Source: a virus. Taken from it: a DNA stretch of 26,667 bases. The position numbers and the translations under genes were made by a program. The notes below the pieces were generated by a model, which saw only the letters and a list, made by a program, of their open reading frames with translations, was not told the origin of the DNA and made no database searches. Positions 2,672-26,473 of this stretch are shown here, piece after piece (position 1 is the first letter of the stretch; every line of letters begins with the position of its first letter). Location of the stretch: the IMG/VR virus record IMGVR_UViG_3300010150_003755, positions 1 to 26,667 of that record; one strand, given 5' to 3'.

Positions 2672-3178
2672 TTAGTTAACCGCCAGGATCTTGTTCCGAT
2701 CAAAACCAACCGTGAAGATTCCTGATTCATCGACTGTCATAGGAAAAGGCTTTCTCTCAAGTTTGACTTCAGTTCTTGCCTCTCGCGAGTTATCAGCGAA
2801 GACTACATCCGTAATTGCTCCGGTTCCCTCGTTAGTTTCTACTTCCATACCAATCAAACTTTCGACGGCTGCTCTATACACTGGATTCTCTTCAACTTTG
2901 CTTAAGTGATCGCGCCAATTGTCCATGTCCATGTCCATGGCGTCGAGGTCGTCTCCAGTATCATCAAACGCTAATCCTGCGTCACCAGTTTCATCTGCTA
3001 TGTATAATAGAGTCGAAAGATCGACAACTGCTTGAATAAATTGTTCTGCCCTAGAGCCAGCAATTTGACCTAGGCTTCCTCTAATCTTTTTTTCCAAACG
3101 ATCCGTCTGGATTTCTTGACCAACCTTGTTGATCTCTTCCTTAATTATTCGCTTTAACTTCGCTTTGGTGATTTTCAT
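2672..3178 (-). CDS. acidic protein with KLKRII tag
   Basis: A 168-aa protein. The start at 3178 was chosen over the longer frame because it begins the conserved tag MKITKAKLKRIIKEE shared with the neighbouring 221-aa protein, and because GAGGA lies about 8 nt upstream. The central part (about residues 65-95) is acidic and contains a short MDMDMD repeat. The C-terminal third (EVETNEGTGAITDVVF, then strands) looks like a small beta-barrel. It overlaps the preceding gene by 38 bases. Two adjacent genes sharing only the N-terminal 15 residues suggests the tag is a sorting signal. Function unknown. Confidence 0.7.
   Translation of the reverse strand: MKITKAKLKRIIKEEINKVGQEIQTDRLEKKIRGSLGQIAGSRAEQFIQAVVDLSTLLYIADETGDAGLAFDDTGDDLDAMDMDMDNWRDHLSKVEENPVYRAAVESLIGMEVETNEGTGAITDVVFADNSREARTEVKLERKPFPMTVDESGIFTVGFDRNKILAVN
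2921..2938. repeat. three tandem copies of a 6-bp unit
   Basis: The unit GTCCAT occurs three times in a row (plus strand) and encodes Met-Asp repeats in the acidic part of the 168-aa protein. It is a small in-frame microrepeat that could change copy number without breaking the frame. Confidence 0.8.
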
Positions 3179-3545
3179 TGGGTTTTTCCTCATCTGTAAA
3201 TAGTCCATACTTCTCTTGTTCACCGTCATCATATGTAATGATAGTTCGATTTCCAGGGTGTGGTTTAATATGAACTGTGATAAAATCATTCATTGAATCA
3301 AAAATAGCAATAGAACCTTTTGGTCTTGGGTATAGCCAGTGTGCTATACACTGTCCGGTTGCGAGCACAACTCCCTCAATCACAACTCCTTCGCCCGACA
3401 CACCTGTTTCATCTGCTTGTCGCGCAACTGTGAATGTCTGGATGCCGCGCGGACATAGACGAGAAGGCTTCTTTGGTATCAGTTCTTCCGCAGGAGATTG
3501 CTCCTCTACTTGAGGTTCGTCTTCGCTATTGGTTGGCTCGCTCAT
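3141..3545 (-). CDS. hypothetical protein
   Basis: A 134-aa protein. Residues 1-25 are acidic and disordered-looking (MSEPTNSEDEPQVEEQSPAE), and the last 25 residues are also polar. Between them is a globular part with alternating strands (IQTFTVARQ, GVVIEGVVL, HIKPHPGNRTIITYDDG). No family is recognised. The ATG has no strong ribosome site, but the gap to the preceding stop is only 23 bases. Its 3' end overlaps the next gene by 38 bases and carries an ACTATTTA motif. Context suggests a virion or assembly role; this is inference. Confidence 0.65.
   Translation of the reverse strand: MSEPTNSEDEPQVEEQSPAEELIPKKPSRLCPRGIQTFTVARQADETGVSGEGVVIEGVVLATGQCIAHWLYPRPKGSIAIFDSMNDFITVHIKPHPGNRTIITYDDGEQEKYGLFTDEEKPNENHQSEVKANN
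3197..3204 (-). promoter_or_regulatory. ACTATTTA motif, candidate late promoter
   Basis: Coding-strand octamer ACTATTTA (3204..3197), 18 nt before the ATG at 3178. It lies within the 3' end of the upstream gene. One of four exact copies in the window, all shortly before virion-like genes. Confidence 0.35.
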
Positions 3546-3568: not shown

Positions 3569-5509
3569 TCACTGCTCGACGCTTAAAGAAAGATCGTATG
3601 CTTTAATATAGGCATCATGAAGTTTGCCTATCGCATTTGATCTTCGCAGCATCTTAAAGGCAAGGTTCTCTGGTGAGAATATTCCGGCTTTTTCTAATCC
3701 GTCAGAACGCATTCTTTTGATCTTGTCTTTCAGGTTTGCAGCGGCCTCTAAGGCAGCGTTATGGTTCCCATCATACAGGATGGCGGCTACTTTGTCAACC
3801 TCTCTTTCAATATTGGCTGCTTTTTTCTTTGCTGTTTTCTTATCAATGAAAGGCTTAACTCTGTTTGGTTTCACGAGCCACTTATCATTCATCAAAGAAT
3901 AGACTCCTGTTGAAACGTGTGGTTCGTTTTCGTCTTGAACATAAAGTTCAACTTCGTGTCCTTTAACTTTAATATCGTGGGCTTTGTTCCAGTTAGAACG
4001 CACAGCATCAAGAAAGCGCTTAACCAGTTCCTCGTTTTCATTAACATCTTTAAAGTCAATAAGAATATGAATATCAATATCAGAGAATTTTGACCAGTTA
4101 TAGTTCGCCAAAGATCCTGTAACAATAATATCCTTCACCTCGGCATCTAAATCTAAACGTTCAATGAAATCATCAACTATATCCATCAATGCTCCCTTAA
4201 CTCCTGGGCGGATTTTCTCATCGCCATCCCATACTTTTTGTTGGAGTTCTGGTTGCATCTCAAATGTTGCTAACTCATCTTTGTCGCCTACGGAAACTAC
4301 AATGTCCTCACGCAATCTGTTGAATCGTTTAAGATCCTTTTCTTTGTATCGGGACTTTTGTTTTACCGGAGGGGCTGTGGATATTTGAACAAGTTTATTC
4401 TGGCTTTCAAGTTCTTCTGTTGTGTTCTTGTTCTTCTTTCGATATACCTGTGCTAGATATTCATTCTCTTCTGGCTTCTCTGCTCTATCGGCGGGCATTA
4501 CAGTATCGTATTGATCAATATCAAATACTAACATCTCGCCTTGAACATCATCGCGCTGTGTATCGTAGAACTTCCAAACTGCGGCAGCAGCGTCAGATAT
4601 TGTTTTTGTATCTGGTTTGAGCCCAGCCTTACCTACTGTCTCCAAGGCTACATCATACAATAACGGACCATAGCCGTCAGCGGCTCTAATAGACTCTACG
4701 ATGTAGTTTCCCTCGTAAGGGAAGTCTCTACCCAACTGAATGGATAGAACGCCGTAGATTGCAATGCCGCGTTCCATACGGTCCATATCCCCTGCTTTGA
4801 GGGGAGAACGAAGGTCATCACGGGTCGCATAGTAAAATCTGTATGATTTTGGTGAGTTCTGCCTATCCACAACAACAACAATACCTTCTGGTAGATCGGC
4901 TGCTGTCTTCATTGCTTCATCTAAAAGCGTTTCCTCTAATCCACCCGGTGCTCCCGGTGGGGCTGACTTAAAGTCTGGTGAATCTTCTACGTTTTTATAC
5001 CCGCCTGTCTTTTGTGGTCCTTTGGAAGTAAGATCCTTAAAGTCTTTCTTAAGATCGGACATATGCTTTGAAGACTGCCAGTATTCACCTTCAGTAACAT
5101 TTTGAACTCTCTTGGTATATGACCCTGGTCCGTAGAATGCTTTCTTTCTTTGTTTTGGCTTGCGTTCTTTGTAGCGAAGAACAGAGACACCTTTTAATCT
5201 TGCGATTTGTTTGATGGCTCTCTTCATCATTATATCTTTTGATCTGTCGCGCGGCTTGCGAATGTGAACTTTGAGAGTAGAAAGGTAAGAGTTGCCCAAG
5301 TCTTTCTGGACACCTCCCTTTTCTTTCTCAACCAAAGTAACAGTCAGCACTTCTGGAAGTGCGCGAATATCATTCTTTGTTTCATCGCGGGATCCACCAC
5401 GATTCTTGTCCATTGAAATAAGGACAGTAAAGTAGAATGTATCCTGATAGTAGGATGGGTCTTTTGCTTCTTCGAGGAAGTCTTTAAATACTTGTAGTTC
5501 GCGTTTCAT
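3569..5509 (-). CDS. multidomain protein: LxE-A tag, GNAT-like region, nucleotidyltransferase
   Basis: A 646-aa fusion. Residues 1-14 (MKRELQVFKDFLEE) precede A15 and match the form of the T4 internal-protein targeting sequence (MKTYQEFIAE then A). Residues 24-75 look like a small alpha/beta unit. A second L-D-E-A site is at 196-199. Residues about 200-325 include GYGPLLYDVALE, a pattern seen in phage proteins and perhaps a GNAT-like fold (tentative). Residues 455-525 are a polymerase-beta-type nucleotidyltransferase: GS at 465-466, D477 and D479 in SDIDIHI, with E519 or E521 as likely third carboxylate. The C terminus is helical. The substrate is unknown. There is no Shine-Dalgarno, and ACTATTTA ends 5 nt before the ATG. 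It probably acts as a virion-packaged enzyme; this is inference. Confidence 0.8.
   Translation of the reverse strand: MKRELQVFKDFLEEAKDPSYYQDTFYFTVLISMDKNRGGSRDETKNDIRALPEVLTVTLVEKEKGGVQKDLGNSYLSTLKVHIRKPRDRSKDIMMKRAIKQIARLKGVSVLRYKERKPKQRKKAFYGPGSYTKRVQNVTEGEYWQSSKHMSDLKKDFKDLTSKGPQKTGGYKNVEDSPDFKSAPPGAPGGLEETLLDEAMKTAADLPEGIVVVVDRQNSPKSYRFYYATRDDLRSPLKAGDMDRMERGIAIYGVLSIQLGRDFPYEGNYIVESIRAADGYGPLLYDVALETVGKAGLKPDTKTISDAAAAVWKFYDTQRDDVQGEMLVFDIDQYDTVMPADRAEKPEENEYLAQVYRKKNKNTTEELESQNKLVQISTAPPVKQKSRYKEKDLKRFNRLREDIVVSVGDKDELATFEMQPELQQKVWDGDEKIRPGVKGALMDIVDDFIERLDLDAEVKDIIVTGSLANYNWSKFSDIDIHILIDFKDVNENEELVKRFLDAVRSNWNKAHDIKVKGHEVELYVQDENEPHVSTGVYSLMNDKWLVKPNRVKPFIDKKTAKKKAANIEREVDKVAAILYDGNHNAALEAAANLKDKIKRMRSDGLEKAGIFSPENLAFKMLRRSNAIGKLHDAYIKAYDLSLSVEQ
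3770..3798 (-). promoter_or_regulatory. possible internal sigma70-type promoter
   Basis: TTGACA (3798..3793), 17 nt, TATGAT (3775..3770) on the coding strand, inside the 3' part of the 646-aa gene. The sequence match is good, but the next start is more than 200 nt away at 3545 and the bases also encode protein, so it may be chance. Confidence 0.3.
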
Positions 5510-6644: not shown

Positions 6645-7640
6645 TTATTCCGCGCTATCGTCATCATCGCCAGTAGCATAGTCAATAATGTAACCGATTT
6701 CAACTAATGATCCTTCGGCTGGTATTACTAAAAACTCAACTTTGTTGTTGAATGGATTATAAACCCAATCTGTCTGAGGTATCGGCACATTGTTTTCAAA
6801 GACTGCTATTGTCTCAACAACTGGACTGTGTGTAAGTTCCCAAGATTCATTTGGCTGAACTTGTGTTACTGCTTCCGTTACGCCGGGAGCCCAATCTGTC
6901 TCACAAATATCCACAACAGTTCCACCGAAAGCATTTGTTGCGTCCATATAACGATAGCCAACATCTATTTCATTAACACTGTTAGTACACTCATTTTCAG
7001 TTCTATGAACATTAACGATGCTTGCGATATAAACGGACTGTCTCGTAAATCTATACCAATTTATAAAATCGGCTAGGCCAGATGGATCGTCGGTGAAATA
7101 CTCCTGACTTTGTTCTTCTTCATCACTAACAAAAACTATCAATAAAGCAGCATCGTTGCGTAGCCAAGTTTGATTGTATAGATTTTCTTCAATATATGAG
7201 TATATAGAATCAAAGCCTGCTTCTCTGGCGTTGTTGCCTGATTGTGCGTAAGCATCCCAAGCGTCTTGAACATCATCACCGGGGACCAAAGGAAACTCCT
7301 GGGCATTTTCAGAGTCAATATTACTGGTGGATGTGATCCCTAATCTCCAACCTGATGTTGGAAGAGAGTTCATCATTTGTTCTATGCCTAGAACTATCGA
7401 TCCTGCGTGCTCGCTCATAGAGCCTGACTTATCAATAAGCCATACAATATCAACGCCGCTTACAGCATATGGTTGTTCAAAGGAGTCAACCCAAACATCA
7501 CCATATATTTCTGTATATTCTGTATCCCCGGGAAGTTTAATATAGATTGTCTCGGGCGGGGTTTGGTCATGGATTGTGTAGTCTCCTTCACAAGCCGTCG
7601 TAGTCATTACCAAGAGAAGCAAAAGAAGAAGTTTTCTCAC
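6645..7640 (-). CDS. VWA-domain lipoprotein
   Basis: A 331-aa exported lipoprotein. The signal peptide MRKLLLLLLLVMTTTAC ends at lipidated Cys17. Residues about 62-250 form a von Willebrand A domain: the MIDAS motif DKSGSM (D70, S72, S74), T103 or T105 and D173 (in FVSDEEE) are the likely metal ligands. The C-terminal 80 residues form a beta-rich domain ending in GDDDDSAE, a tail that resembles lipoproteins of myxobacterial-type bacteria. The GTG start is 4 bases after the stop of the trypsin-like lipoprotein gene; the ribosome site is weak, so coupled expression is likely. It could bind a ligand at the host surface; a lipoprotein VWA is unusual for a phage. Confidence 0.8.
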   Translation of the reverse strand: MRKLLLLLLLVMTTTACEGDYTIHDQTPPETIYIKLPGDTEYTEIYGDVWVDSFEQPYAVSGVDIVWLIDKSGSMSEHAGSIVLGIEQMMNSLPTSGWRLGITSTSNIDSENAQEFPLVPGDDVQDAWDAYAQSGNNAREAGFDSIYSYIEENLYNQTWLRNDAALLIVFVSDEEEQSQEYFTDDPSGLADFINWYRFTRQSVYIASIVNVHRTENECTNSVNEIDVGYRYMDATNAFGGTVVDICETDWAPGVTEAVTQVQPNESWELTHSPVVETIAVFENNVPIPQTDWVYNPFNNKVEFLVIPAEGSLVEIGYIIDYATGDDDDSAE

Positions 7641-7644
7641 TGCC

Positions 7645-8493
7645 TTAATCTCTTCGACTTCCCCTTCTAGGCGCGACGGCCCCAGGGAAAGCTTTAAGTG
7701 ATGCCGGTTCGGCTGGAATCTCTGACGAAATAATCTTGGTTTTTAGAAGATCTTGATTGATGCGACTGATTGGGGCAACCCAAACGATCTCTTCAATCGG
7801 TATTCTCATTCCAAACTCAAACCGTCCAATGTCTATCCCTGATACGCAACCTAGATAACGTCCGCTGCTATCAAATATACCAGAACCGGACGAGCCAAAC
7901 CAACCAAACATATTGGCTACTACCATATCTTTGTGTAGGGCTGCGATGTAACCACGAATAGTAAGAAGATCGTGATGAGATGGAAAGCCTGTGTATGTAA
8001 GGCTCGCTCCAATCAAACGCTCATCGTATTTCATTTGTGGGTTGTAGCGGACTGCTGTTCTAGTTTCCATCTCTGGGACTACCAAGAACGCTAAGTCAAC
8101 GCCGTGATCCACAAAGACAACTTTGCCTATGACCATCTCGCCATCGCGACCATCAATAACCATACTCTCTTCGTCTCTTACAACGTGAGCGGCAGTGGCG
8201 ACAATGCGTCGTCCATAAGCAACCATATAGGTTCCAGAACCGTGACCTCCATGAAGAATGGAGCGGACCTTTACAGCCGCTTGTCTAGTTCTCTTTTCAA
8301 CCGTTGTTAGGTTGGCTACATCTATAATCTCAAGGACCTTACCGACCCGATCCTTGACTTGAATTGTTTTTTGAGTTTGAACTGTTTCTGGCTGTTCAGA
8401 GCCGGTTTTTGGTGTGTTGGGTAAGACGGGTCCGTTACAACTTACCAAAAGTAAAGAAGTTATTAATATAAAGTTTTTAATGTACCTAGTCAC
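7645..8493 (-). CDS. trypsin-like serine protease lipoprotein
   Basis: A 282-aa exported lipoprotein. The signal peptide ends in the lipobox LVSC with Cys19 lipidated, followed by a Pro/Thr/Gln-rich linker to about residue 45. Residues 70-250 form a trypsin-like (S1/DegP-type) fold: H103 in TAAHVV, D133 in GVDLAFL and S202 in GSSGSG make a complete triad. No PDZ domain follows, and the last 30 residues are Pro/Arg-rich. The GTG start has AGGAG 7 nt upstream. It would act on the periplasmic face of the envelope. It is the first gene of a pair with the VWA lipoprotein. Possible roles are host envelope protein cleavage or exclusion of other phages; both are inference. Confidence 0.85.
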   Translation of the reverse strand: MTRYIKNFILITSLLLVSCNGPVLPNTPKTGSEQPETVQTQKTIQVKDRVGKVLEIIDVANLTTVEKRTRQAAVKVRSILHGGHGSGTYMVAYGRRIVATAAHVVRDEESMVIDGRDGEMVIGKVVFVDHGVDLAFLVVPEMETRTAVRYNPQMKYDERLIGASLTYTGFPSHHDLLTIRGYIAALHKDMVVANMFGWFGSSGSGIFDSSGRYLGCVSGIDIGRFEFGMRIPIEEIVWVAPISRINQDLLKTKIISSEIPAEPASLKAFPGAVAPRRGSRRD

Positions 8494-8657: not shown

Positions 8658-10442
8658 TTATTTTATTATTCTTGACCATCGCTCTGTAACACGGCGATCA
8701 TCAAAGCGCTTTTTTGGCTCTTTCTTGGCGAGTCCCTTAGAATCATAAAAGTTCTGTAGGTCCATCTCAAACCCATCAAGATCAAATCCCTCAAGAGCTG
8801 AGGGCTGTTCGTCGGCAGCGTACTCATAATAGCCTTTCTCAACATCTATTAAGCGATTAACTAACTTGTTAGCGTTCTTAATAATAGCAGCAAAAGCTTT
8901 CTTTGCCTCTTCTTGAGTAGCCTGGTCGGCGCTTACTGGCGGGGCTTCAAATTTAAAATACCATGTAAGTGTGGTTTCTAGCGCATTGGCGCGCTCGGAG
9001 CCCCAGGGGTCCATTCGTTTCTCGTCTTTGATTACCACGGGGGAAACCCTAACTTTTGGAGTGACTCCAAAGATTTCAGAAGAGAAATGCTTTGCTATAA
9101 AGTTCGACTCCAAAGAATCTTTTAGATTTCTGAAAAGTTTAAGTCTCTCTTGACGCGCGTAACGGATCTCGTCGTATGTTCCGTCCTGATACACATCTGA
9201 GAGATCCGCTTGATACAGAAGTTTGTAATCAACCCTAAGGTAGTCGTAGTCCAGGGTCGTTCCGGCTAAATCAAACGGCGCGGTGACGTTCATAGTATTT
9301 TTTGATATATTATCAAGTTCAAGCAGGGCTTTTGTTGCTTCCTCCCAATCGTCTCCGGTTTCTTGAGCATATTCTATGAATGATTGTCTGAAAATGTCTG
9401 GGGATGCTTTCTCCAAATACTCAATCATCTCCTTACTAGCATCACCGCTGCGGTCTTCTCGATAGTTCTTTGCTCCCATATTGACTAGGAACCAAGAAAT
9501 ATACGGCCAATACTTTTTCTTTGGAGTCATATTGGCGCGGCCTTTAACCTGCCAAACTGTTTTATCAGCATCCATCTCTATTGTAACGTGGGGATCGGGA
9601 TCTTTTCTAGTTCCTGATGGGGAACGCAAAGAATAAAGGTTGCCTTCTTTCATTCCTTGTCCGCAGTGCCCCATTTTTAGTCCTTCAATATTGCAAGCAT
9701 CAGACTTAATATCATACCAGTAATAACCATTGTCAAACTTATGAACTACGTTCTGTGGCTCTTCTGGTTCTCTTGCCAGTAACCTTTTAGCCTTCATAGC
9801 TGCAGTGATCAGCTTCCTTTTATCAGGAATGAGACTCACAAACTTTAATATTGATTGATAATCATCCGGGTCCTCTACAACAGCCTTTATAATGGGCTCT
9901 AATTGAGGCATTACAAATTTTTCTGCCCACTTAACCATAGCATCAACAAAAACCTTATCTGATGCTTCTGCTTTTTCTGTTAGTCCCGCTTTTTTAAGTT
10001 TCTTGACGTATCTCTTTCTATAACGATTTGTATCTAAAATGTTTACAAGCCGGGGATTATCCGGGTTGTTTCCTGTGGTTCCAGCTACCAAAGGATGAAT
10101 AAAGTCTTTATCCATTTCCTTACGAAGAGCTTCATCCTCGGCGGTCCTTTCAGAACGAGGCTTCCTGCGATCATAAAGAATAGCTTGTAAATCTGATATT
10201 GCGGGATTACTTCTAAACTTGTTATCATCATCTGACGGGTTCACCCAATCAATGATAAGAGGCGTCGCCCACGAGTAGCTACGAACCATAGTTCCAAGTG
10301 AAGTTAGAACCTTCTCTGGGACTGGACCATTTGTGCTATTCGCATCCCTAATCATAGCGACGATTTCAAGAGGCAAACCGGATTGTTCGATCGCCTCTTG
10401 AAGCAAATATTCTTTCCATTTATTAGATTGTCGTAAATACAT
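8658..10442 (-). CDS. 594-aa PcfJ-like protein with LxE-A tag
   Basis: A 594-aa protein. Residues 1-16 (MYLRQSNKWKEYLLQE) precede A17 and fit the amphipathic helix plus L-x-E-A pattern of the T4 capsid-targeting sequence. Residues about 240-325 contain C250, MGHC (257-260), YSLR (270-273), PHVTIE (284-289) and QVKGRANM (298-305). This order recalls the PcfJ-like domain of phage and conjugative-element proteins, whose biochemical role is not established. The C-terminal half has no recognised domain. There is no Shine-Dalgarno before the ATG, and ACTATTTA ends 6 nt upstream. It is probably a late, virion-associated protein; the packaging role is inference. Confidence 0.75.
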   Translation of the reverse strand: MYLRQSNKWKEYLLQEAIEQSGLPLEIVAMIRDANSTNGPVPEKVLTSLGTMVRSYSWATPLIIDWVNPSDDDNKFRSNPAISDLQAILYDRRKPRSERTAEDEALRKEMDKDFIHPLVAGTTGNNPDNPRLVNILDTNRYRKRYVKKLKKAGLTEKAEASDKVFVDAMVKWAEKFVMPQLEPIIKAVVEDPDDYQSILKFVSLIPDKRKLITAAMKAKRLLAREPEEPQNVVHKFDNGYYWYDIKSDACNIEGLKMGHCGQGMKEGNLYSLRSPSGTRKDPDPHVTIEMDADKTVWQVKGRANMTPKKKYWPYISWFLVNMGAKNYREDRSGDASKEMIEYLEKASPDIFRQSFIEYAQETGDDWEEATKALLELDNISKNTMNVTAPFDLAGTTLDYDYLRVDYKLLYQADLSDVYQDGTYDEIRYARQERLKLFRNLKDSLESNFIAKHFSSEIFGVTPKVRVSPVVIKDEKRMDPWGSERANALETTLTWYFKFEAPPVSADQATQEEAKKAFAAIIKNANKLVNRLIDVEKGYYEYAADEQPSALEGFDLDGFEMDLQNFYDSKGLAKKEPKKRFDDRRVTERWSRIIK

Positions 10443-12098: not shown

Positions 12099-13673
12099 CT
12101 ATACCTCCACAATGGCGTGAGAAGTTGTGATCAAAGTTCCAGCGGCTGATGCTGCGTTTTGTAACGCTGTCCTAGTAACCTTAACTGGATCAATGACTCC
12201 CTCTTCAAGCATATCTACCATTTCATCTGTGCGGAAGTTATAACCATAGTTGCCCTCGGCGTTCTCAACCTGTGATAGAACAAGATCAGCGGATAATCCA
12301 CAGTTCAAAGCCATCTGGCGTAGTGGTGCCTTAATGGCTTCACGAACGATTTCTATACCAAACACTTGATCTTCATTTTCTGCGTTTATAGTAGAGAGTT
12401 TGCTTGATGCACGGACCAAAGCGACACCACCACCGGGGACTACTTCCTCTTGCTGTGCTGATTTAACTGCTTCTAAGGCATCTTCAATGCGGTGCTTCTT
12501 CTCAATCATCTCAACTTCTGTTGGAGCACCTACCCTAATGACTGCGACACCTGATGCTAACTTTGTGATGCGCTCTTGGATCTTGTCGCATTCAAGTATG
12601 TCGTCTGTTTGTACAAGTTCGGTCTTAAGAAGTTCAATCCTTCTATCAATCTCATCAAAGTTTCCCTTACCACCAATAACAGTTGTGTTTGACTTTGTGA
12701 TATCGATCGAACGGCACTGTCCAAAGTGTTGCAACTTAATGTTTTTAAGGCTCGCTGTGCCGTCCGTAGAGATGAACTCCGCTCCGGTTGAGAGTGCTAG
12801 GTCGGTTAGGATATTACGACGCCTCTCGCCATAGAAGGGAGCCTTAATAGCAGCAATCTTCATTGTTCCGCGAACAGTATTCATAATGAGCGCAGCCAAT
12901 GCTTGACCTTCGATCTCTTCTGCTACAATGATAAGCGGTCTTCCATCACGGGAAACGATCTCAAGAGCAGGAAGGATTTGATCTACTGATTCAATTCGGT
13001 TATCAGTTATTAGCAAGAGAGGAGAATCATAATGACACGCACCTCTGCGCTCATCGGTTACAAATGCTGACGCAGCATAGCCAGACTCAACTCTAAAGCC
13101 TTCAATAACATCCAAAGAAGTCTCAACTGACTTTGCGTCTTCAATCGTAATAGAGCCATCCTTGCCTGCCTTATCAACAGCAGTAGTAATCAACTTACCG
13201 ATTGTTCTATCATTGTTCGCAGAGATGGTAGCAATGTTCTCAACATCATCAAGTGTCTCGATATGTTGGGCTTCGCTTTGTAGTTCCCTAACTAAAGTTT
13301 CTACAGCCAAGTCAATACCTCGCTTAAGTTCTACTGGTGAAGCACCAGCAGTAATATATCTCTGTGCCTTGTTTAGGATTGCGCGAGCAAGCACTGTCGC
13401 AGTTGTGGTTCCATCGCCAGCCATTGTGTTGGTTTGGGATGTTGCCTGCTTAACAATCTGTGCTGCTGCGTTCTCAAACTCATCAGTTAAATGAACGAAC
13501 TCTGAAACCGTCACACCATCCTTGGTGATGATAGGATCCTTTCCTTTTTGATGTAAAATAACATTGCGACCCTTCGGTCCTAATGTTGCTGAAACATTAT
13601 CTGCTAACTTGTTAACACCGTCCAGAACCTTTTGGCTTAAACTCTGGCGGTCATTGAATACACACTTGGGCAT
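12099..13673 (-). CDS. groEL: GroEL-type chaperonin
   Basis: A 524-aa group I chaperonin, close to the usual length (548 in E. coli). LGPKGRN is at 31-37, MAGDGTTTAT at 84-93 with ATPase residue D87, GGG at 414-416 and EDAL with D398; these positions coincide with the E. coli numbering. The protein lacks the Gly-Gly-Met tail, ending TSHAIVEV. It would fold host or phage proteins, such as a capsid protein, in the cytoplasm. No GroES gene is visible in this window, so a host or distant phage co-chaperonin would be needed. It starts with ATG after GAGG and is driven by a perfect consensus promoter. It is clearly phage-sited, not a host fragment, given its neighbours. Confidence 0.95.
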   Translation of the reverse strand: MPKCVFNDRQSLSQKVLDGVNKLADNVSATLGPKGRNVILHQKGKDPIITKDGVTVSEFVHLTDEFENAAAQIVKQATSQTNTMAGDGTTTATVLARAILNKAQRYITAGASPVELKRGIDLAVETLVRELQSEAQHIETLDDVENIATISANNDRTIGKLITTAVDKAGKDGSITIEDAKSVETSLDVIEGFRVESGYAASAFVTDERRGACHYDSPLLLITDNRIESVDQILPALEIVSRDGRPLIIVAEEIEGQALAALIMNTVRGTMKIAAIKAPFYGERRRNILTDLALSTGAEFISTDGTASLKNIKLQHFGQCRSIDITKSNTTVIGGKGNFDEIDRRIELLKTELVQTDDILECDKIQERITKLASGVAVIRVGAPTEVEMIEKKHRIEDALEAVKSAQQEEVVPGGGVALVRASSKLSTINAENEDQVFGIEIVREAIKAPLRQMALNCGLSADLVLSQVENAEGNYGYNFRTDEMVDMLEEGVIDPVKVTRTALQNAASAAGTLITTSHAIVEV

Positions 13674-15190: not shown

Positions 15191-15844
15191 TTAGATGATT
15201 TTATCAACAAGACCCATTTCAATTGCTTCTTGCGCAGAGAAATATTCATCTGTGTTCTTTGAAAACATGTTGTGTATCTCACCCACAGATAATTCTGAGC
15301 TTTCTGCGATTATCTGTACCATTTGATCTTCCATTAGCCGCACCTCATCGTGTGTCGCCTTAATGTCGGCTGTCGTTCCCATATTTCCGGCTGAACAACG
15401 GTGCATCATAATGCGAGCATTGCGAGTGATAAACCTCTTGCCTTTGGTTCCTGCCGCCAAGATAGGCACACCAGCAGAGAAGATCTTTCCGGTGCCTAAT
15501 GTAGAAATGTCGCGACGTTCCTTTACAATCCTCATCATATCCACAACGCCAAACATATCATAGACAGTTCCTCCGGCAGTTGAGATTAGAAAGTGTATAT
15601 CGTCTTCTTCCTCTTCATCTTCCTTTCTAGGGTTGGGAAAGATACTGCCGCCGTTTAACTGTAATAAACCGTGGTATAACTCTTGTGCTGATTCTTCGTT
15701 TAAGTCTCCAACTAAACCAATGGTGTTGGGTGCCTTATCTTGCTGTTCTAATGCCGCAGCCATTAACATTGCTGCTTGGCGCTCAGAGATCTCCTCCTCT
15801 TCCTCTGGCTCTGTTTCTGTGCTTTCGTTATTAAACATAATCAT
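15191..15844 (-). CDS. ClpP-like serine protease 1
   Basis: A 217-aa ClpP-family (S14) protein with a full triad: S123 in KIFSAGVP, H148 in RIMMHRCSAG and D199 in NTDEYFSA. STAGG at 88-92 and the EAIEMGLVD end fit the family. It differs from host ClpP by an acidic N terminus (EPEEEEEIS) and an acidic insertion near residues 74-82. Such phage proteins may act as head-maturation proteases or as Clp-type degradative subunits. No Clp ATPase gene is visible here. The ATG was chosen as the first in frame after the upstream stop, with GGGAG about 13 nt upstream. A promoter lies in the upstream gene. Confidence 0.85.
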   Translation of the reverse strand: MIMFNNESTETEPEEEEEISERQAAMLMAAALEQQDKAPNTIGLVGDLNEESAQELYHGLLQLNGGSIFPNPRKEDEEEEDDIHFLISTAGGTVYDMFGVVDMMRIVKERRDISTLGTGKIFSAGVPILAAGTKGKRFITRNARIMMHRCSAGNMGTTADIKATHDEVRLMEDQMVQIIAESSELSVGEIHNMFSKNTDEYFSAQEAIEMGLVDKII

Positions 15845-20492: not shown

Positions 20493-21056
20493 TTAAATGA
20501 TCTCATCAATAACGCCCAAGGCGAGCGCTTCGTTTGCCGTCATATGCCAGTCAACCTTATTCTTAAGGATGCTTTTAAGCTTCTTCTTGCTAATACTGGT
20601 TCGTTCGAGTGTAATCTTCTCGATCTTCTTTTGTAGTCTCTTTGTTTCTTCCAGGCTTTCTTCCATATCTTGAACATTACCCCGGAACCCAGTTGAAACC
20701 TGATGGTAAAGCGGCGTGGACAACTCATATCCAAAGCGCTTATGTCCCGAGATTAGAATCATAAACCCGCAAGACATAGCGGCACCAGTTACAATGGTGT
20801 GGATAGGAGTTTCAGACTTCGCCATAACTCCAAGCAACCCGAAGCACTGATACACAGCGCCACCATAAGAATCAATATACAACTTAATCGGCTTAGGATC
20901 GTAGATTATATCATTGATCGCATATAACTTCTTTAAGTATTCATCGCTCTCATTGATTCCAATAATGCTCTTCGTCAACTTATTCATTGACTCTTGGTTT
21001 ACTTGTTCTGGTAGATACAAGCTTCTAGCCATAGGCTTTGGTAGAGTGTTCGTCAC
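20493..21056 (-). CDS. ClpP-like serine protease 2
   Basis: A 187-aa ClpP-family protein with a full triad: S95 in GAAMSCGF, H118 in TPLYHQV and D169 in KVDWHMTA. DSYGGAV (62-68) is the oxyanion glycine motif. It is shorter than host ClpP (about 200 aa) and lacks the acidic insertions of the other copy at 15191-15844. The start is GTG overlapping the dUTPase stop (GTGA). It sits among nucleotide genes, so it is more likely an early protein than a head-maturation protease, but this is inference. No Clp ATPase is visible in the window. Confidence 0.85.
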   Translation of the reverse strand: MTNTLPKPMARSLYLPEQVNQESMNKLTKSIIGINESDEYLKKLYAINDIIYDPKPIKLYIDSYGGAVYQCFGLLGVMAKSETPIHTIVTGAAMSCGFMILISGHKRFGYELSTPLYHQVSTGFRGNVQDMEESLEETKRLQKKIEKITLERTSISKKKLKSILKNKVDWHMTANEALALGVIDEII

Positions 21057-23032: not shown

Positions 23033-26000
23033 TTATCCTAGCAATCTTAAGTTTCTTTTGATAGATCTCGTTGAGAATCCCCACGCTGGGTCATAGTCTA
23101 GTTTGCCCATGTAAGGTCTGTTCAAGTGGATCCTGTCTTTCCCCTCTACTATACCCCAGCAGCGGAAGCGTGTCAAGGCCGAATTTGAATCGATTACCTC
23201 GACAATCCAATATGGCTTTCCATTCTTCGTTTTCTTTCGAACAATCTGCCGAGGAATAAACCATACCAATCCTAACTCTGGATCATAGTCTGAAATCGGC
23301 GGAATGTAATGTTCATCCAACTGACGCTGAACTTCTGGTGTAACAACCAAATGCATTGGAAAGATTCCAGTGATTGATGTTAGGTTCTCGATTTCTTCTG
23401 CCGCAGAGAAGTCGCCATCAGGGTAATACTTTTCAATGTTCTCATTGAACTTCTTGCGATTATAGACCCTATCTACTGCGACAGCAGACCAGAAATGCTT
23501 GCGTCCAGAGAATCGCTCATCCATTAAACTGTTCATTGCGCCAGCACGAGTTAAACGATCAAGTGCTTTCTTGTTTAGTTTGCTGTATACAATATCGTCG
23601 TGGAACAAGAAATCCTCGATTGTTGCGAATGGTCTATGATCTACAATCTGCTGGATTGCTGCGTCTCCTAAACCTTTCAACCCTGCAAGTGGTTGAACTA
23701 ACTTTCTATCATTATTTGGATCAATCTCCCATACAAACGATGAACGATTCACGTCTGCCTTTTCAATAGTAAATCCGTTCTGCTTTGCGATGTTGATCGC
23801 TCTTTCCTTACGCTTCTCTGGTTCCTTATCCAAGAAAGAAGCCATCCACTCTACTGGGTAGTAGTTCCATAGCCAAGCACATTGGAATGAGATTGCGGAG
23901 TAAGAAATAGCGTGTGATTTGTTAAAACCATACCCGGAGAAATACTCAAACCGCTCCCACATATCTTCTGCTTCTCGTTGGCGAATACCCTTTTCGATAC
24001 AACCATTGATAAACTTATCGTGGATTCTCATCTTTACTTCGTGACCCTTGCCGGTTCCTTTCTTTGTGAGAACCTTGCGAAGAAGATTGCCTTCATCTAG
24101 AGAAATGTTCTTGCCTAACTTGTGAGCAAGAAGCGCAATCTGCTCCTGAAAGATCAAGAACCCGTAAGTTTCCTGTGTTACTTCCTTAATATGCTCGTTA
24201 ATGTAATCAATCTCGTGAGGCATGCTCTTCGCTTGAATGTATTGCTCGTGAACATTTGCCGACAAAGGACCTGGGCGATAGATTGAAGTGATGGCTGATA
24301 TGTCAACTAATGACTTCGGCTTTGCGTTTGCGCAAAATTCTTGTGCTCGCATCTCTGTAAACTGAAAAATACCGGCGAAGTTTCCGCTCTGGAAAACATT
24401 CTTATATACCTTTTGGTCGTCAAAATCAATCTTATCCGGGTGGAGGTTAGCGTTGTAGAAATCTTGAACATCCTTGAATGTTGGGTTTGGATTATTCTTA
24501 TGTCTAACAAGAATGTGCCTGATTGCCCCTTCGATCATACGAAGAGTAGAAAGCCCAAGCAAATCAAACTTAATGAACCCTAATGGCTCCAAGTGGCGAA
24601 CGTGCTGTCCTTCTGCCCAAGGTGATTGCCTTACTCCTCCTGAACTGATAATCGGCATATGCTCATTTAGATCATCAGCAACCAATACACCGCCAGCGTG
24701 GCGTGAACAAGAACGAACTTGACCTACAAGTGCCTCAACGTGTGTCTTAATGTGAGGATACTTAACAAGGAACCCTCGCAAAGAAGGAGAAAGTTCCATT
24801 ACTTCCTTCCAAGTCGGGTTATAAACACCAGCCTTAATACCGTGCTTAACCTTTGCTAATGGAGTTGCTTCAAAGATCATCTGTGATGTAACTTTGTTTA
24901 CTTCAATGAAAGGCACACCATAGAACTTTGAAATATCCTTAATCAAGGATTTAAGTTGTAATGTGTTCCAGTTTGAAATCGGGACAACAGAGTTCTTACC
25001 CCATTCCTCCATCAAAAGTTCTTTAAGTTCCATTGGCTCTGCTACATCATAGTCAATGTCTGGATAGTCAGTTGCGTCCTTACGAAGGAACCTCTCAAAG
25101 AGAAGACCATACTTAATAGGATCGATTTGTGTAATCCCGAGAACATACGCAACCAAGGATCCTGCTGCCGAGCCTCGCCCGGGACCAGTAAGTTGAACTT
25201 CGTTTGCTTTGTCGGAAATGGCTTTCATAGTCAAGAAATACTTACTAAACCCTCGATCCTCAATAACATCAAGTTCGGTTTGTAGTCTATCTGTGTATTC
25301 CTTATTGTCGTGGAAGTTTAGATTACGAAGGCCTTCCAAAGAATAGTTCACCAATGCCTGATCTGCCGTAAAGCCGGCTGGAACCACAAAGTTTGGAAGT
25401 TTAACTGTAGTATCTGGCGTAAAGTCCTCGATCATGCTGAAAGCAATATCGTGCGTTCTTGTGATTGAATCCATAACCAGTTGGTCATCATATTCTACTC
25501 CGCAAGACTTTGAATAATACTTATAGGAATCCCACATTTGGTTTCCGTTTTTTGGATAAAGTTCATATCCAATCTCTTCTACACCGGGCGGCAACTCTGT
25601 ATTATCTTCTGCCCAAGCGGGTGCTCCCTTACCAAGCCAGCCTAAACGCTTATATAGTTCACGATCCCTCCAAGCATCAGGATTAGGGTAGTGACTGTCT
25701 GCGGTAGAGATAAGAGGGATCCCGAACTCTTTGTTCATCTCAATAATGTATTGATTTAGTTCGTGCTGCTCTGGAATATTGTTCCATTGTAGTTCGCCGT
25801 GCCAGCGATCTCCAAAGATCTCCACAAACCGGCGTGTTGTTTCTCTCATAGCCTCGCGGACTGCTTCTGGACCTTCTTCACGGTTTGCCCAATAGTTCCC
25901 GGCATAAGGACCGCCCAAACACGCAGACGCAGCAACAATGCCCTCTGAGTATTTGTTTAACATTTTATAATCAACGCGAGGATAACGATAAAAGTTCTCT

Positions 26001-26473
26001 TCTTTGTAAGACTCAGAGATTAACTTAAATAGATTAGTTAGTCCTGTCTGGTTTTGAACCAGAAGTACGAGGTGGCGGCGACGGTTAATAACTGACTTAA
26101 TAGCCTTCTTTGAAGCATCTTCGTCTTCAACGGTTGCTCCTGATGTATCTTCTTGTTTTGCTAGGGACTTTGCTTGTTTTGCGTCAGCCTTAACACGCTC
26201 ATAATCATCACGCCACTCTTCAATGGAAGGCAAGAAATATGCTTCTACTCCAAAAATAGGCTTAAAGTTCTTTCCCTCAGCCTTCATCTTCTTCCAATGA
26301 AGCAACTGATGAGAAAAACCATTCATATTGCCGTGATCTGTGAGAGCGAGTGCTTCTCCACCGTTCTCATAGCAAAAGTTCATGTGTTCGCTTGGGTATC
26401 CCATAGCGTCAAAGATGCTGCCCGCAACCGAGTGAGCGTGAAGTCCTACAAAAGGAATCTTTTTATCCGTCAT
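23033..26473 (-). CDS. dnaE: DNA polymerase III alpha subunit (DnaE type)
   Basis: A 1146-aa DnaE-type replicative polymerase (E. coli 1160 aa). Residues 1-300 are a PHP domain with apparently intact metal residues: H12 and H14 (LHAHS), D46-H47 (LTDHG), E77 (GVEAYF) and D259/H261 (TADSHY). The palm has GPGRGSAAGS (430-439), catalytic D474 and D476 in PDIDYD, and D637 in KFDLLGL. Near residues 1050-1110 is an OB-like stretch with a Trp-rich end. It would be the phage replicative polymerase; the PHP domain may give proofreading. No beta clamp-loader genes are seen here. The ATG has GAGGA 10 nt upstream, with a promoter before it. Confidence 0.97.
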   Translation of the reverse strand: MTDKKIPFVGLHAHSVAGSIFDAMGYPSEHMNFCYENGGEALALTDHGNMNGFSHQLLHWKKMKAEGKNFKPIFGVEAYFLPSIEEWRDDYERVKADAKQAKSLAKQEDTSGATVEDEDASKKAIKSVINRRRHLVLLVQNQTGLTNLFKLISESYKEENFYRYPRVDYKMLNKYSEGIVAASACLGGPYAGNYWANREEGPEAVREAMRETTRRFVEIFGDRWHGELQWNNIPEQHELNQYIIEMNKEFGIPLISTADSHYPNPDAWRDRELYKRLGWLGKGAPAWAEDNTELPPGVEEIGYELYPKNGNQMWDSYKYYSKSCGVEYDDQLVMDSITRTHDIAFSMIEDFTPDTTVKLPNFVVPAGFTADQALVNYSLEGLRNLNFHDNKEYTDRLQTELDVIEDRGFSKYFLTMKAISDKANEVQLTGPGRGSAAGSLVAYVLGITQIDPIKYGLLFERFLRKDATDYPDIDYDVAEPMELKELLMEEWGKNSVVPISNWNTLQLKSLIKDISKFYGVPFIEVNKVTSQMIFEATPLAKVKHGIKAGVYNPTWKEVMELSPSLRGFLVKYPHIKTHVEALVGQVRSCSRHAGGVLVADDLNEHMPIISSGGVRQSPWAEGQHVRHLEPLGFIKFDLLGLSTLRMIEGAIRHILVRHKNNPNPTFKDVQDFYNANLHPDKIDFDDQKVYKNVFQSGNFAGIFQFTEMRAQEFCANAKPKSLVDISAITSIYRPGPLSANVHEQYIQAKSMPHEIDYINEHIKEVTQETYGFLIFQEQIALLAHKLGKNISLDEGNLLRKVLTKKGTGKGHEVKMRIHDKFINGCIEKGIRQREAEDMWERFEYFSGYGFNKSHAISYSAISFQCAWLWNYYPVEWMASFLDKEPEKRKERAINIAKQNGFTIEKADVNRSSFVWEIDPNNDRKLVQPLAGLKGLGDAAIQQIVDHRPFATIEDFLFHDDIVYSKLNKKALDRLTRAGAMNSLMDERFSGRKHFWSAVAVDRVYNRKKFNENIEKYYPDGDFSAAEEIENLTSITGIFPMHLVVTPEVQRQLDEHYIPPISDYDPELGLVWFIPRQIVRKKTKNGKPYWIVEVIDSNSALTRFRCWGIVEGKDRIHLNRPYMGKLDYDPAWGFSTRSIKRNLRLLG
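23148..23176 (-). promoter_or_regulatory. sigma70-type promoter for purA
   Basis: On the coding strand TTGACA (23176..23171), 17 nt, TATAGT (23153..23148), inside the 3' end of dnaE and about 120 nt before the purA ATG. Confidence 0.65.

Follow-up and report, generated by a model that had tools for sequence, protein, structure and literature searches.

Can a T4-like prohead serve as the compartment in which a fused enzyme is packaged and then cut into its parts? The question is raised by a gene in a viral DNA of 26,667 nucleotides (IMG/VR record IMGVR_UViG_3300010150_003755, positions 1 to 26,667), which we call the window. The gene encodes a 646-residue protein in which a short leader is followed by a ferredoxin-like N-terminal domain (N-domain), a linker, a middle domain that we name GPLLYDVA after its characteristic motif, and a nucleotidyltransferase (NTase), with L/I-x-E motifs after the leader and between modules. 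The reading that we favor, with a probability of about 0.62, is that formerly separate, head-packaged proteins have been fused into one chain, which the prohead protease would split before its parts are injected.

The open reading frame (ORF) was confirmed on the minus strand; the plus strand there is rich in stop codons. A sequence search with the whole protein gave no match in the Protein Data Bank (PDB). NCBIfam yielded nothing useful, and PADLOC only weak matches to uncharacterized candidate models. The T4 late-promoter motif TATAAATA was uninformative.

The leader resembles those of T4 head proteins

The T4 internal protein IPIII begins MKTYQEFIAE/A, where the slash marks the cut. T4 leaders are 10-19 residues in length; targeting needs residues 4 and 7, processing needs residues 8 and 10, and cleavage follows L/I-X-E (PMC9026906). 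The leader of the window protein falls within this length and ends in L/I-x-E, as expected of a T4-type capsid-targeted head protein, and its F8, F11, L12 and E14 match the T4 residue spacing, which the start of IPIII fits as well. Of 14 relatives of the N-domain, 13 have an L/I-x-E leader whose last residue is number 14, where x is E, R, L, Q, V, S, T or N.

The number of LxE-A motifs was rejected as proof of processing. By chance a 646-residue protein of these genomes would contain about 2.0-2.1 copies of [LI]xE[ASG] and 0.75-0.9 of [LI]xEA, so that the count is at chance level. The sites are meaningful because of their conservation and homology. The fuller pattern [FWY]xx[FWY][LI]xE[ASG] is N-terminal in 26 of 1684 dereplicated proteins (0.26 expected) and internal 3 times in 349,496 residues; these proteins came from fetched loci. 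The set is partly selected, several of the matches being members of the protein's own family, but many are unrelated proteins.

The internal site corresponds to the leader site of stand-alone proteins

The chain is described by two structure models, of residues 1-410 and 399-646. A combined 87-row alignment, which seemingly misplaced the middle-domain rows, was left out of folding, and one fold-prediction alignment comprised the rows without named phage records. The model of residues 1-410 has a mean predicted local distance difference test (pLDDT) score of 77.4, with helices at residues 2-14, in the leader, and at 191-199, where a short helix holds the second LxE-A site. The N-domain is predicted as beta-alpha-beta-beta-alpha-beta (residues 23-116, pLDDT mostly 83-92), and compares with the C-terminal region of the PheRS beta chain (VIA Z 10.5, root-mean-square deviation 3.4, 93 residues aligned). 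The linker falls below pLDDT 50 at 120-139 and 164-191, and holds V-T-E/G at 138-141, which is I-T-E-G in some relatives. The GPLLYDVA domain is folded at about 203-378 (pLDDT mostly 84-95). It has no Pfam or PHROG match; hhalign aligned its GYGPLLYD with the G-x-G loop of GNAT at a probability of only 1%, and there was no Pfam GNAT match. A Foldseek search with the N-terminal model was dominated by ferredoxin-like folds and barely probed the middle domain. Among named phages neither the N-domain nor the middle domain has a significant relative.

A DNA pattern for GPLLYDVA was found in 41 viral-contig stretches, mostly encoding stand-alone proteins with leaders, including MKHLRQYIRGILLTE/GMKTEADLPDG, MKVLRQYVRQILLTE/AMKTETDLPDD and MRITRRKLRSIISE/AMKMPSDLGDD. 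Leaders ending in [LI]xE[ASG] are present in 16 of 33 stand-alone members, whereas shuffles average 2.6 and never exceed 8. The leader site of these proteins aligns with the internal site of the window protein, ILLTE/GMKTEADLPDG against LLDE/AMKTAADLPEG. In an alignment of 34 members, with a mean column identity of 20%, the glutamate of the window L-D-E/A lies in a nearly invariant leader column, the sole such column before GPLLYD. LDEA is retained in 7/7 three-module proteins, even where the linkers have diverged (L052 and L192). The simplest account of these alignments is that a tagged separate gene became fused behind the N-domain and would have retained its leader-cleavage site. A possible third site, LRE401, has LRE[DE] equivalents in L002-L005 and L191, and by sequence in L052.

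The first-pass annotation of this DNA had proposed a packaging-type tag and a second LxE-A site at residues 196-199. The tag is borne out by the leader position, the N-terminal enrichment and the tagged virion proteins described below, and the second site is the one whose homologue in stand-alone proteins is the leader site. That annotation also predicted pieces of 184 and 448 residues; the arithmetic is right, but the 448-residue piece comprises two modules, GPLLYDVA and NTase, with LRE401/D possibly between them.

The modules are evidently combined in several ways. The order found in the window protein is repeated in L001-L005, L052 and L192, all with GPLLYDVA between N-domain and NTase. This slot is empty in L101, L102, L189 and L191, and in L188 (3930-6191, minus strand, 753 residues) it holds an M23-like peptidase domain, with a Pfam score just under the curated cut-off. 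L194 is the N-domain as a stand-alone protein with a leader. Longer NTase proteins in L116, L140 and L175 start with a cytidylyltransferase-like domain (a weak Pfam match).

Two further observations concern these families. Tandem leader-bearing GPLLYDVA proteins in one contig (L061, L096, L082 and L093) resemble a diversified internal-protein set. In L131 (2501-5080, 859 residues) an internal KSLIKKLLREG directly before the NTase copies the protein's own N-terminal sequence MKHLIKKLLNEE.

The nucleotidyltransferase has an intact active site

The C-terminal module matches Pfam NTP_transf_2 (E 5e-5, exceeding the curated cut-off), and phrog_36119 covers residues 411-643 (E 6.6e-46). It contains the G[SG] motif followed by DxD that the pol-beta superfamily requires. 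Across 57 relatives G465, S476, D477, D479, H481 and E521 are invariant; S466 is not, and the cyanophage relatives read G-G where the window protein has G-S (465-466). The full metal-binding set is therefore present, the third acid E521 lying in strand 120-128 of the NTase model. That model (residues 399-646) was predicted by AlphaFold2 with pLDDT 90.0 and a predicted template modeling score of 0.76, and shows a helical bundle after the NTase core. Assignment to the pol-beta catalytic class is well supported. A pol-beta core with GS 465-466, D477 and D479 had been recognized in the first-pass annotation; Pfam, PHROG and the 57 relatives agree with it, the residues that it named (L196-D-E198/A199, G465, S466, D477 and D479) are all as stated, and the predicted structure, which it had made decisive, retains the active site.

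A comparison with known NTase folds had also been suggested. NTase folds do come out on top in Foldseek, at weak scores: lincosamide, spectinomycin and streptomycin NTases lead at E about 3e-3 or weaker, with MNT lower. VIA-align gave Z 6.2-7.6 against solved NTases over about 90-105 residues, and in a profile search of the PDB the matches were weak, the best being the AMPylating domain of DrrA (E 0.0075). Comparison of the modeled fold places the domain nearest to small-molecule and MNT-type NTases. At such scores no substrate can be assigned; we favor a protein or RNA target over a small molecule.

NTase relatives were found in at least 577 viral-contig stretches, and the family is present in T4-like cyanophages, Caulobacter phage Cr30, Maribacter phage Molly, Prevotella Lak phages and phages of 630-735 kb. 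In 85,000 bacterial and archaeal genomes there were 10 loci, all on contigs of metagenome-assembled or single-cell genomes and mostly short.

Tagged enzymes and an NTase relative are listed in cyanophage virions

Published mass spectrometry of S-CREM2 lists 52 virion proteins. Among them is ORF156 (126012-126725), with 6 unique peptides and 15.2% coverage, listed as a hypothetical protein. It is a homologue of our NTase (34.5% identity over 415-642, E 1e-24) in the form of a 237-residue stand-alone protein. The earlier proposal of a packaged NTase thus gains virion association of a member of the family. Two genes upstream, ORF154, a cytidylyltransferase, is also virion-listed and starts MKNFSSFLTE/A. 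An N-terminal [FWYL]xx[FWY][LIM]xE occurs in 7 S-CREM2 ORFs, of which 5 are virion proteins (p = 0.009): gp6 SAM hydrolase, gp12 Cas9-like, gp13, gp14 kinase and gp154.

The narrower tag FxxF(L/M)xE stands on 4/4 non-lytic S-CREM2 virion enzymes, i.e., the SAM hydrolase, Cas9-like nuclease, APH-like kinase and cytidylyltransferase. The passages of the paper seen here make no mention of it.

Carriers of the gene, close and distant, also have T4-type head genes. In the close relative G005, whose protein has 71% identity to that of the window, there are genes for a Peptidase_S77 protease (E 1.7e-31; 71945-72544 of its contig) and for gp23 (E 5.6e-62). The G005 gp23 carries L-R-E/S at residue 59, slightly ahead of the region that aligns close to where mature T4 gp23 starts. 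Among 19 further carrier records, all 11 with a length of at least 115 kb contain a T4-type prohead protease and gp23.

Coordinates and neighboring genes

Table 1. Positions of the features discussed, in window coordinates unless another record is named
Feature	Position	Strand	Basis
Whole gene: leader, N-domain, linker, GPLLYDVA domain, NTase	3569..5509	-	ORF and translation
Predicted capsid-targeting leader, residues 1-14, MKRELQVFKDFLEE	5468..5509	-	Model helix 2-14, relatives, S-CREM2 tags
Site 1, L12-E-E14/A15	5465..5476	-	L/I, E and mostly A kept; x variable
N-domain, residues 23-116, GGSRDETKNDIRA	5162..5443	-	Ferredoxin-like fold predicted
Linker, residues 117-190, mostly low-confidence, conserved SAPPG	4940..5161	-	pLDDT, linker sites
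Site 2, residues 191-199: L191-E-E193/T and L196-D-E198/A199	4913..4939	-	Conservation, stand-alone homologue alignment
GPLLYDVA (middle) domain, residues 200-378	4376..4912	-	Folded in model; stand-alone relatives
Possible third site L399-R-E401/D402, residues 399-403	4301..4315	-	Conservation; weaker than sites 1 and 2
Pol-beta NTase with C-terminal helical bundle, residues 411-646	3572..4279	-	Pfam, PHROG, AlphaFold2
GS...SDIDIH active-site motif, residues 465-481	4067..4117	-	G465, S476, D477, D479 and H481 invariant in 57 relatives
E521, predicted third metal-binding acid	3947..3949	-	Invariant in 57 relatives
Tagged S-CREM2 gp6, gp12, gp13, gp14, gp154	L195, L197		
G005 genes of the second leader type	7072-7746, 32620-32853, 71498-71941		

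Other leaders are found in the window. A 594-residue protein (8658-10442, minus strand) with no Pfam or PHROG match starts MYLRQSNKWKEYLLQEA, and its G005 relative MMYLRQTNKWKDYLLQEG; it is probably a further cargo protein with a head tag. Another type of leader, MKxTKxKLKRIIxEE, is present on the adjacent genes at 2004-2669 and 2672-3289 (minus strand) and on two G005 genes (MKITKSKLKRIITEEL and MKITKARLQEIIKEEL), with a looser version (MKISEERLKKIIKEEI) on the G005 gene adjoining the prohead protease. It is perhaps a second core-targeting tag.

The remaining genes include adjoining VWA-domain and trypsin-like-protease genes (6645-7640 and 7645-8493, minus strand), both with lipoprotein-like N termini. 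GroEL, two ClpP-like proteins and a bacterial-type DNA polymerase III alpha are encoded at 12099-13673, 15191-15844, 20493-21056 and 23033-26473 (minus strand), and PurA, IMPDH, ThyX, dUTPase and Dam are also present.

A proposed maturation pathway and its alternatives

We propose the following pathway. Residues 1-14, to judge from their similarity to T4 leaders, would target the precursor into the prohead core. A gp21-like prohead protease cutting after L/I-x-E would remove the leader at E14, and a cut after E198, with or instead of E193, would separate the ferredoxin-like N-domain from the rest; a cut after E401 would perhaps free the NTase. The fragments would probably be of about 184 residues (ferredoxin-like) and 448 residues (middle domain and NTase). 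The freed modules would remain inside the head alongside the DNA and reach the host upon infection. There the NTase, with its intact active site, would nucleotidylate a molecule of the host or the phage at an early stage. A broader idea, which we put forward tentatively and at rather less than even odds, is that the T4-like prohead is a polyprotein-maturation compartment: tagged effector genes would fuse, the junctions would keep their cleavage sites, one chain would be packaged, and the protease would release several enzymes, including an injected NTase that modifies host RNA or protein.

A number of results weigh against packaging and cleavage of the fusion. The published virion mass spectrometry covers a stand-alone relative and not the window lineage. 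That relative, ORF156, starts MKKLISELKLTL and lacks the aromatic tag, so the NTase family can reach, or contaminate, the particle without a tag; the S-CREM2 authors themselves regard such proteins as possible purification carry-over. Some of the tags had already been seen when the S-CREM2 tag pattern was extended (L, M, any P1'), and [LI]xE[ASG] at N termini does not separate virion from non-virion proteins of this phage (p = 0.51). The leader is absent from L102, the remaining one of the 14 N-domain relatives. In L103/L104 a tagged N-domain gene overlaps a separate, leaderless NTase ORF by 4 bases (ATGA, at 3968-3971 of L103), a pair that represents the fusion in its natural split state. Finally, the window itself contains no head genes, being too short to show the protease or gp23.

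How else might the protein be read? Cleavage could be confined to the leader, giving a mature 632-residue multidomain enzyme in which the internal LxE sites are left over from gene fusion. Since these sites are homologous to old leader sites, fusion alone could have left them there, and L101, which lacks the middle domain, has LEE/E where others have LDE/A. The persistence of LDEA in every three-module protein, diverged linkers included, speaks against relics, as does its position after the low-confidence, probably disordered residues 164-191; we consider this possible but doubtful. Residues 15-198 might instead be a long propeptide or core-binding module that is discarded in maturation, only the 448-residue part being delivered. 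There is precedent in the giant phage SPN3US, which removes propeptides of 111-254 residues from several head proteins (PMC10052503), but the N-domain is also found as a stand-alone tagged protein (L194, and in L103/L104 beside the NTase gene), suggesting that it has a mature function of its own. We consider disposal unlikely.

We think it similarly improbable that the NTase acts in the cell in which it is made, or as a factor of head assembly, rather than being an injected effector. Most members of the family are stand-alone and lack the aromatic tag, and in DSL-LC02 and DSL-LC03 their genes are near replication genes; yet ORF156 was detected in S-CREM2 virions, and tagged or virion cytidylyltransferase genes lie two genes away in several cyanophages. 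That this is an ordinary cytosolic NTase with LxE motifs arising by chance is consistent with the motif counts taken alone, but the leader position and the homology of the internal site are far from chance, and we give this explanation very little weight. The packaged and processed fusion remains the reading that we prefer.

This reading supplies a rule by which the enzymes in the heads of environmental T4-like phages can be recognized from sequence. The analysis also names an NTase among cyanophage virion proteins that had been left hypothetical. It further suggests that a single tag is enough to load several effectors, then freed by the viral maturation protease.

Comparison with known systems

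We found no description of effector polyproteins released by the prohead protease in T4-like phages in the part of the open-access literature that was searched. The nearest parallels lie in T4 itself. Like IPI-IPIII, the window protein has a short N-terminal leader ending in L/I-x-E, with a gp21-type protease and gp23 in its lineage; unlike these small single proteins, it is 646 residues long, is divided into three modules and has both internal sites and an enzyme domain. T4 Alt, also an enzyme carried in the head, is injected after gp21 has trimmed both of its ends (PMC9026906), and this is the logic that the first-pass annotation had proposed. Alt is an ADP-ribosyltransferase, whereas nucleotidyl transfer is the chemistry proposed here, with cuts between the modules; no ADP-ribosyltransferase domain was matched in the window protein by Pfam at E up to 1.

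Polyvalent proteins are multidomain effectors that enter with the invading DNA, and GNAT and pol-beta NTase modules are listed among them (Iyer et al., 2017, PMC5512222). They use embedded peptidases, and their pol-beta NTases are reported only for conjugative elements (PMC5512222). Our protein would likewise be a multidomain effector entering with DNA, but its release is proposed to occur in trans by the prohead protease; its Pfam matches are to NTase families, and neither a peptidase nor another signature domain of polyvalent proteins was matched. S-CREM2 gp156 belongs to the same NTase family and was detected in virions, but it is a 237-residue stand-alone protein without the aromatic tag and is not named as an NTase in the table of that paper. 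The MNT antitoxin-type and aminoglycoside-type NTases and DrrA/SidM share the pol-beta core, with weak matches (LinB, AAD(9), AadA, MNT; DrrA as above). The NTase of the window protein differs from these in a C-terminal helical bundle that has invariant residues of its own.
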